Positions 42,380 through 43,170 of a DNA stretch of 64,000 nt are shown in pieces. This DNA comes from Microbacterium oleivorans NBRC 103075 (GTDB lineage: Bacteria; Actinomycetota; Actinomycetes; Actinomycetales; Microbacteriaceae). The first letter of the stretch is position 1. Every line of letters begins with the position of its first letter. The notes under the pieces are model-generated. The model saw only the letters and a list, made by a program, of their open reading frames with translations. It did not search any database and was not told the origin of the DNA. The stretch lies in the NCBI RefSeq assembly GCF_001552475.1, contig NZ_BCRG01000002.1, positions 248,001 to 312,000 of the forward strand, written 5' to 3'. A program made the position numbers and the translations under genes.

Positions 42380-42485
42380 GTGTGCTCTCCTTCGTCGGCG
42401 GGCGCGGCATAAGCCGGCCCTCCCATCTTCGCCCCGCGAGGTCCCGGCGGCTAGTGAGGCGCGCCTTACCCTGACGGGCGAAATT

Positions 42486-42503
42486 TATCTTGATATCAAG
42501 ATA
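42486..42503. promoter_or_regulatory. Perfect MarR-type palindrome upstream of acnA
   Basis: TATCTTGATATCAAGATA reads identically on both strands. It stands out as an AT-rich island in the 149-base gap between acnA and the LON-domain gene. The form (18-base dyad with TTGA/TCAA core) is that of MarR-family operators. A second, imperfect dyad GTGAGGCGCGCCTTAC lies at 42454-42469, closer to acnA. Confidence 0.75.
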
Positions 42504-42528
42504 CTCTACCGCGTCGGATGCCGCTTAC

Positions 42529-43170
42529 TCAGGCGTCGTCGTCTTCGGGGTCGACCGTGTCGGCCGCACGGGCGACCAGGACGGGTTCCTCTTCGAGGCA
42601 CAGCTCCGTCAGCGTGGTCAGGAGTTCCTGAAGGTTCGCTGCTCCGAGCAGGCGGAACCTGTCGTAGTCCCCCAGGGGGGCGATGGCTGCCAGCTGCCAC
42701 GCGGCTTCCACCGGATCGTCCGACACCTCCGTATCGGGGTCCCATCGGGCCTCGTCGAGGACCGACGCGAGCGTGGCGACCCGCCGCACGACGCGCTCCG
42801 CCTCTCGCCGGAGCGAGGACAACGCCTCATCCCAGACCAGCGGCGGCAACGGCGAGACATCGGCGATCGGATGAGGATCGTCGTCACGCCACCGGTCGAC
42901 GGCGATCCGTTCTCCTCCGACAGCGACGACGAAGAGGTCGGCGCTGCCCGCTTCGACCTTCACGATGCGCGCCATGGTTCCGAGCGAAGCGCGTTCGTCT
43001 CCCCCACCCGATTCGAGGCCGCGTTCGATCAGGACCACACCGAACGACGGATCATCCTCGTCGAGCAGTCGCCCCACCATCGTGAGGTAGCGCGGCTCGA
43101 AGATCCGCAGCACGAGAGGAGTGTGCGGAAAGAGCACGCTCCCGAGTGGGAACATCGGAACGGCGTCCAT
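42529..43170 (-). CDS. LON peptidase substrate-binding (N-terminal) domain protein
   Basis: 213 residues containing only the Lon N-terminal domain: VPMFPLGSVLFPHTPLVLRIFEPRYLTMVGRLLDEDDPSFGVVLIERG at the start, then GTMARIV and GGERIAVDRW. There is no AAA+ or protease domain, so it is a stand-alone substrate-recognition-like protein of unknown partner. ATG 43170 starts the conserved N-terminus; no strong ribosome binding site is seen. Downstream of the DUF3159 operon on the opposite side of a 43-base gap, same strand. Confidence 0.9.
   Translation of the reverse strand: MDAVPMFPLGSVLFPHTPLVLRIFEPRYLTMVGRLLDEDDPSFGVVLIERGLESGGGDERASLGTMARIVKVEAGSADLFVVAVGGERIAVDRWRDDDPHPIADVSPLPPLVWDEALSSLRREAERVVRRVATLASVLDEARWDPDTEVSDDPVEAAWQLAAIAPLGDYDRFRLLGAANLQELLTTLTELCLEEEPVLVARAADTVDPEDDDA

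Follow-up and report, generated by a model that had tools for sequence, protein, structure and literature searches.

In Corynebacterium glutamicum, aconitase is controlled by AcnR, a TetR-family regulator encoded next to the aconitase gene (acn), and by RipA. For Streptomyces coelicolor, the consulted passages of a review describe TamR as a repressor of multiple citric acid cycle genes including that of aconitase, whose DNA binding is weakened by citrate and trans-aconitate, compounds that may rise when the Fe-S cluster of aconitase is damaged (PMC5487221). TamR (SCO3133) and its targets are attributed to Huang and Grove (2013) and Huang et al. (2015) in excerpts of PMC5487221, PMC6391409, and PMC9739823. 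Here, we describe an 18-bp palindrome upstream of the aconitase gene acnA in a stretch of 64,000 nucleotides (the window) from the genome of Microbacterium oleivorans NBRC 103075. As in S. coelicolor, a MarR-family regulator with an aconitase target is indicated, and as in C. glutamicum, an actinobacterium would have transcriptional control dedicated to aconitase, with a link to iron; unlike AcnR, the candidate regulator belongs to the MarR family and is encoded elsewhere. At a probability of about 0.9, we take the palindrome to be the operator through which a TamR orthologue, encoded away from the locus, controls acnA. The original prediction had suggested a MarR/TamR-type site for this gene, and its interpretation is supported in its core by the copies of the site at isocitrate dehydrogenase and sucC genes, by the TamR orthologue encoded in the genome, and by the way the site tracks TamR across genomes. 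A known citric acid cycle switch would thereby be extended well beyond Streptomyces.

The perfect 18-base dyad announced before the aconitase gene was confirmed (Table 1), and at up to three mismatches it is single-copy both in the window, 100 shuffles of which gave none, and in the whole 2.98-Mb genome. Its GC content is 22%, as against 68% for the window. Perfect symmetry was rejected as proof of function: the window contains five perfect 18-base palindromes where base composition predicts 0.7, and the four besides TATCTTGATATCAAGATA are GC-rich. Symmetry being weak evidence, the palindrome was judged to be real and under selection because it is conserved. The gap between the stop codon of the upstream LON-domain gene (42529) and the GTG start codon of acnA (42379) measures 149 bp, and the start codon is 106 nt downstream of the operator. 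Because the LON-domain gene, on the same strand, faces this gap by its stop codon only, acnA is the sole gene that the operator can serve, as originally stated. The absence of an adjacent marR gene likewise holds, since none of the 22 matches to PF01047 (MarR) in the genome, 19 of them over the cut-off, is on the acnA contig (C2).

Table 1 Features of the acnA upstream region (window positions) and related features elsewhere in the genome of the window (G000; contig and position).
Feature	Location	Strand	Details
Putative TamR-type operator TATCTTGATATCAAGATA	42486..42503	.	Perfect 18-bp dyad (9 + 9)
acnA, aconitate hydratase, 954 aa	39515..42379	minus	TIGR01341 1281.5 bits, PF00330, PF00694
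LON substrate-binding-domain gene, upstream of acnA	42529..43170	minus	PF02190 92 bits; not a target
Candidate -10 hexamer TAGAGT	42503..42508	minus	Abuts the operator with a one-base overlap, on the acn strand
Second element TAAGGCGCGCCTCACTAG	42451..42468	minus	17 nt downstream of the operator; covers GTGAGGCGCGCCTTAC (42454-42469)
TamR orthologue	G000:C3:277060-277545		65% identical over 160 aa to the protein beside tam in G480
icd site (monomeric isocitrate dehydrogenase)	G000:C5:11503		
sucCD site, before sucC	G000:C15:27208		

Conservation was assessed in 80 named loci best matching AcnA, fetched with their upstream DNA and nearly all titled Microbacteriaceae, the nearest AcnA among them being from Microbacterium oleivorans (97%). 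A version of the operator (up to five mismatches) was present within 450 nt upstream of acn in 79 of the 80 loci, at a fairly constant place, with the consensus TATCTYGAYRTCRAGATA. Locus L087 was rejected as a true absence, as its acn upstream region contains 46 Ns, and it was excluded from the site matrix and the leader statistics. In the aligned close leaders, the operator varies mainly at the symmetric positions 6 and 13 and at the two central bases. A site with up to two mismatches was found anywhere in the genome in 143 of 149 genomes of the genus, with none for the reversed-pattern control; 26 of the 30 site loci fetched in this genus survey are at acn, the second sites of the scan being sampled among the matches listed. 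In five of the six other genomes, acn is preceded by a consensus site; the sixth, 87% complete, gave no acn. One record among the loci, L079, is titled Planococcus sp. APC 4015 and combines an aconitase 87% identical to that of the window with a Microbacterium-type promoter; it is probably mislabelled.

Across the actinobacteria surveyed, genomes nearly always had both the site and the repressor or neither of them. In this class survey, 138 genomes were searched for acn and TamR, a TamR orthologue being taken as a match with E ≤ 1e-45 and at least 56% identity (83 genomes; the distant relatives had E ≥ 3e-38). Of the 129 genomes that matched acn, 128 provided upstream DNA, which was scored by a matrix made from the 79 close sites; present sites scored at least 22, all others below -4, and shuffled upstream regions at most 12. 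The site preceded acn in 81 of 82 TamR-positive genomes, four surveyed genomes being from the window's own genus or family, the source of the matrix, and in 3 of 46 TamR-negative genomes (Fisher p = 3e-29, a value that ignores relatedness); in the other 43 of these 46 the site was missing although acn was present. Similar contrasts were seen inside two genera. In one, G568 has neither the site nor TamR and G529 has both; in the other (g240, 1.3–1.4 Mb), G555 and G575 have neither, and G512, G527, G542, G566, and G598 have both, TamR being the only homologue at E ≤ 1e-20 in these five. At the usual place before acn in G575, which gave no TamR hit, the best remnant is TATCTTGACGCTCAAGAA (L284), readable as a decayed operator into which a single base has been inserted.

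Among the exceptions, G594, 86% complete, has TamR and no site; contamination is suspected because of this incompleteness and because six examined family mates have neither. G570 (77% complete) and G586 (82% complete) carry the site and no TamR; both have TamR-positive family mates. The third exception of this kind, G509, has no TamR at orthologue level and carries a 52% identical relative beside acn; two sites, with one and two mismatches (positions 159 and 193 of L401), were observed between acn and this divergent gene. Within the genus of the window, an orthologue-level TamR match was obtained in 146 of 149 genomes, and the three genomes without one (G039, G046, and G090; 44%, 81%, and 68% complete, respectively) have the acn site.

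The original prediction had called for a TamR homologue, and the genome indeed encodes an orthologue of the MarR protein found beside tam, the gene for trans-aconitate methyltransferase, in Streptomyces-like genomes. Both PF12802 and PF01047 are over the cut-off in this protein, and its recognition segment, SGTMTNRIDRL, is identical to that of the protein beside tam in G480; the form SGTMTNR[ILV]DRL is found in 60 of 60 aligned TamR orthologues. The corresponding segment is SGTMTHRLDKL in the relative from G509 and SSAVAQRLNRL in L013, a MarR paralogue in the genome of the window that is 44% identical to the TamR of the Streptomyces-like genus. The nearest solved structures by sequence include 8ylf/8ylh and 2fbk (E values of 1e-33, 8e-29, and 4e-10), which we take to be PecS-like and HucR proteins; these resemble the M. 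oleivorans TamR in sequence, but they are not TamR and have other targets and ligands.

That the palindrome is instead the operator of another MarR regulator, for example L013, its link with TamR being a phylogenetic coincidence, is highly improbable, even in a genome with as many as 19 PF01047 matches over the cut-off and for a family whose sites resemble one another. The surveyed genomes are not independent samples, but the presence of the site goes with that of the orthologue class (E ≤ 1e-45), within two genera as well, and in g240 TamR is the sole homologue at E ≤ 1e-20 where it is present, G555 and G575 lacking both the site and TamR. The recognition segment of L013, moreover, differs from that of TamR, and the site stands beside tamR and tam in the Streptomyces-like genus and in G233, as follows.

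The Streptomyces-like genus (g8), which we take to be Streptomyces, comprises nine genomes of 7–10 Mb. In the phylum scan, TATCTCGACATCGAGATA was found before acn in all nine, and the exact consensus in none of the 314 genomes of the phylum outside the class. A search of 21 genomes with the profile NF010703 (trans-aconitate methyltransferase) gave matches over the cut-off in ten, namely these nine and G156, with G233 just below the cut-off. At all nine Streptomyces-like loci, tam is separated by a site with up to two mismatches from a divergent MarR-family gene, which we take to be tamR from this neighbourhood. In G233, a perfect palindrome is located 33 bp from tam, beside the TamR orthologue. 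G156 possesses tam, without a TamR homologue at E ≤ 1e-20, and has no site at up to three mismatches near tam and none before acn. In G454, a site at position 1384 of L209 was observed directly before a gene for a class I methyltransferase, weakly Tam-like (50 bits) and possibly a non-orthologous Tam.

The window's genome thus shares with the Streptomyces-like genomes the same site before acn and a protein 65% identical to the one encoded beside tam, and differs from them in gene organisation. The operator is at both the aconitase gene and the tam-tamR region in all nine Streptomyces-like genomes and in G233, and in the window's genome at the first of these two places only. Here, tamR is unlinked to acn; its neighbours, judged by eye, are an RluA-like gene and a tRNA gene followed by a glmU-like gene. 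No site was found upstream of tamR, the best match having seven mismatches; a copy at a marR gene, originally named as informative, was found at tam-tamR in the Streptomyces-like genomes and in G233. Nor did any tam exceed the NF010703 cut-off in this genome (best, 33.5 bits). The hallmark arrangement, with tamR divergent from tam and carrying its own site, is therefore absent here, a difference that concerns gene organisation and not the identity of the protein.

Further copies of the dyad had been proposed as informative, and two near-consensus ones were found in the genome, before the genes for monomeric isocitrate dehydrogenase (icd) and for sucC (Table 1); malate synthase, also named, adjoins none of the genome's three sites at up to two mismatches. 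With the degenerate consensus, there was one site at zero mismatches, two at one, and none at two. At three mismatches, ten matches on the forward and seven on the reverse strand were obtained, versus three and five in the reversed-pattern control. The idea that the site family is unspecific was rejected, as the genome's sites at up to two mismatches are found only at acn, icd, and sucCD.

In 17 genomes of the genus, TMTCTYGANRTCRAGAKA without mismatch gave 44 sites (control, 0), the genes being assigned by tblastn and by reading of the translated frames. Of these, 43 precede acn (17 sites, in 17 of 17 genomes), icd (11), sdh (8), or sucCD (7, before sucC), and the remaining one lies beside a glyoxalase-fold gene; the assignment to sdh is indirect, as the site is about 1.0 kb upstream of sdhA with other genes between. 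In three Streptomyces-like genomes scanned, sites with up to one mismatch were confined to acn and tam-tamR, and G233 has an icd site besides these two. Since multiple repressed cycle genes are reported in the cited passages on S. coelicolor, and near-consensus sites in the three Streptomyces-like genomes scanned were seen only at acn and tam-tamR, weaker sites may serve there.

Two observations on the genes beside such sites are added here. In L458 (G104:C27), a site at position 602 lies 62 nt before an icd of the dimeric type, as judged by reading, whereas the gene behind the remaining icd sites observed is that of the monomeric enzyme. Two Microbacterium genomes encode a small glyoxalase-fold (VOC) protein with its own TamR-type site (L165:2613-3011 in G074 and L426:1406-1804 in G005); in G276, the gene for a 42% identical relative (L420:2380-2763) is a neighbour of tam, and VOC relatives adjoin tam in four of the nine Streptomyces-like loci.

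In 80 aligned close leaders, TGnTAnATT is found directly 5' and AAT directly 3' of the operator, with column counts of 53/80 for T-9, 59/80 for G-8, 63/80 for T-6, 57/80 for A-5, 73/80 for A-3, and 67/80 for T-1. TGnTAnATT can be read as an extended -10 element next to the operator; alternatively, the dyad may extend outwards into the ATT and AAT flanks. The hexamer TAGAGT in the window is shifted by one base relative to the relatives, and CGG stands where these have TGn. With the -10 element abutting it, the operator is predicted to lie over the transcription start, as expected for a repressor. Such a position, abutting a -10-like hexamer at a fairly constant place upstream of acn, would also suit a conserved element without regulatory function, for example an RNA hairpin or a part of the core promoter. 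This explanation is the least probable of those considered, because the variation at symmetric positions 6 and 13 and at the two central bases is that of a dimer site, because further copies stand at icd, sdh, sucC, and tam, and because the dyad is absent from 43 of the 46 TamR-negative genomes that have acn.

Under the preferred reading, a TamR dimer would sit over the start of the promoter beside the candidate -10 element and block transcription. When citrate or trans-aconitate accumulates, for example on damage to the Fe-S cluster of aconitase, TamR would leave the DNA, allowing more aconitase and neighbouring cycle enzymes to be made; by analogy with S. coelicolor, it would dim acn, icd, and sucCD until citrate accumulates. 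Both the sign and the ligand are carried over from Streptomyces only, and the genome has no tam over the cut-off, so that TamR might bind the palindrome and activate acnA, or answer in Microbacterium to a ligand other than citrate or trans-aconitate. We consider such a departure unlikely: repression fits an operator beside a -10-like element, the controlled enzyme has citrate as its substrate, and the review passages describe TamR as a repressor that citrate and trans-aconitate weaken (PMC5487221).

A second, weaker dyad had been noted between the palindrome and acnA. The dyad GTGAGGCGCGCCTTAC is indeed present; it overlaps a second conserved element, separate from the TamR-type operator, which is likelier to be an iron box than a weaker copy of the same signal. 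Its consensus in the close leaders is TWAGGNNNNCCTYRCTRG, located 6–67 nt downstream of the operator and matched with up to one mismatch in 72 of 80 acn leaders versus 0 of 4000 shuffles, a contrast somewhat flattered because the pattern was derived from the same leaders. In leaders of the class set, it was matched in 8 of 127 at up to one mismatch and in 46 of 127 at up to three, counts that stand without a shuffle control. The element in the window differs at two positions from the 14-bp half-site TTAGGNNNNCCTAA, proposed as the IdeR/DtxR half-site consensus in PMC8464063, and it resembles the DtxR/IdeR/DmdR1 iron boxes in this and in its position before aconitase; unlike them, it consists of the half-site only, the full site measuring 19 bp, and has a different 3' extension. 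For S. coelicolor, PMC12161575 predicts a DmdR1 site in the interval separating SCO5998 from the aconitase gene SCO5999; in co-expression data SCO5999 shows no correlation with dmdR1, and several regulators are suspected. Because the element is near the IdeR/DtxR half-site and a DmdR1 site is predicted at SCO5999, we regard acn as probably under two controls, that by iron being presumptive; the element would add iron control of the DtxR/IdeR type to that of the same iron-sulphur enzyme by TamR. An iron-box-like element beside the operator could help explain why aconitase does not follow dmdR1 in the Streptomyces co-expression data.

A full-text search for ATCTTGATATCAAGAT and TCTTGATATCAAGA returned no paper, a result of little weight, as sequences in figures are outside such a search; among the open-licence papers searched, no report was found that describes a Microbacterium TamR site or a TamR regulon spanning the class. 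Through this analysis, what began as an isolated palindrome becomes a predicted regulon for which both a regulator and a ligand can be named. The results suggest that a switch so far described in a single species of Streptomyces occurs widely in the class, in close association with the aconitase operator, and that this switch can persist without the methyltransferase from which its name is taken. Tentatively, and at somewhat less than even odds, we propose a broader picture, in which the actinomycete class possesses in TamR an ancient switch responding to citrate, retained even by genomes of 1.3 Mb. In Microbacterium, TamR would have become a tam-less, unlinked, and non-autoregulated repressor of successive steps of the cycle (acn, icd, sucCD, and sdh), with an iron box added at acn, and the VOC protein, next to tam in some Streptomyces-like genomes and with its own TamR-type site in two Microbacterium genomes, would take a hitherto unrecognised part in the handling of trans-aconitate or of its ester.

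Both the gene organisation and the set of sites differ from those in the Streptomyces-like genomes examined. Compared with the S. coelicolor TamR system, the tamR gene here is unlinked to tam, none being over the cut-off, and has no site of its own, and near-consensus sites stand at icd and sucCD, and in relatives at sdh.
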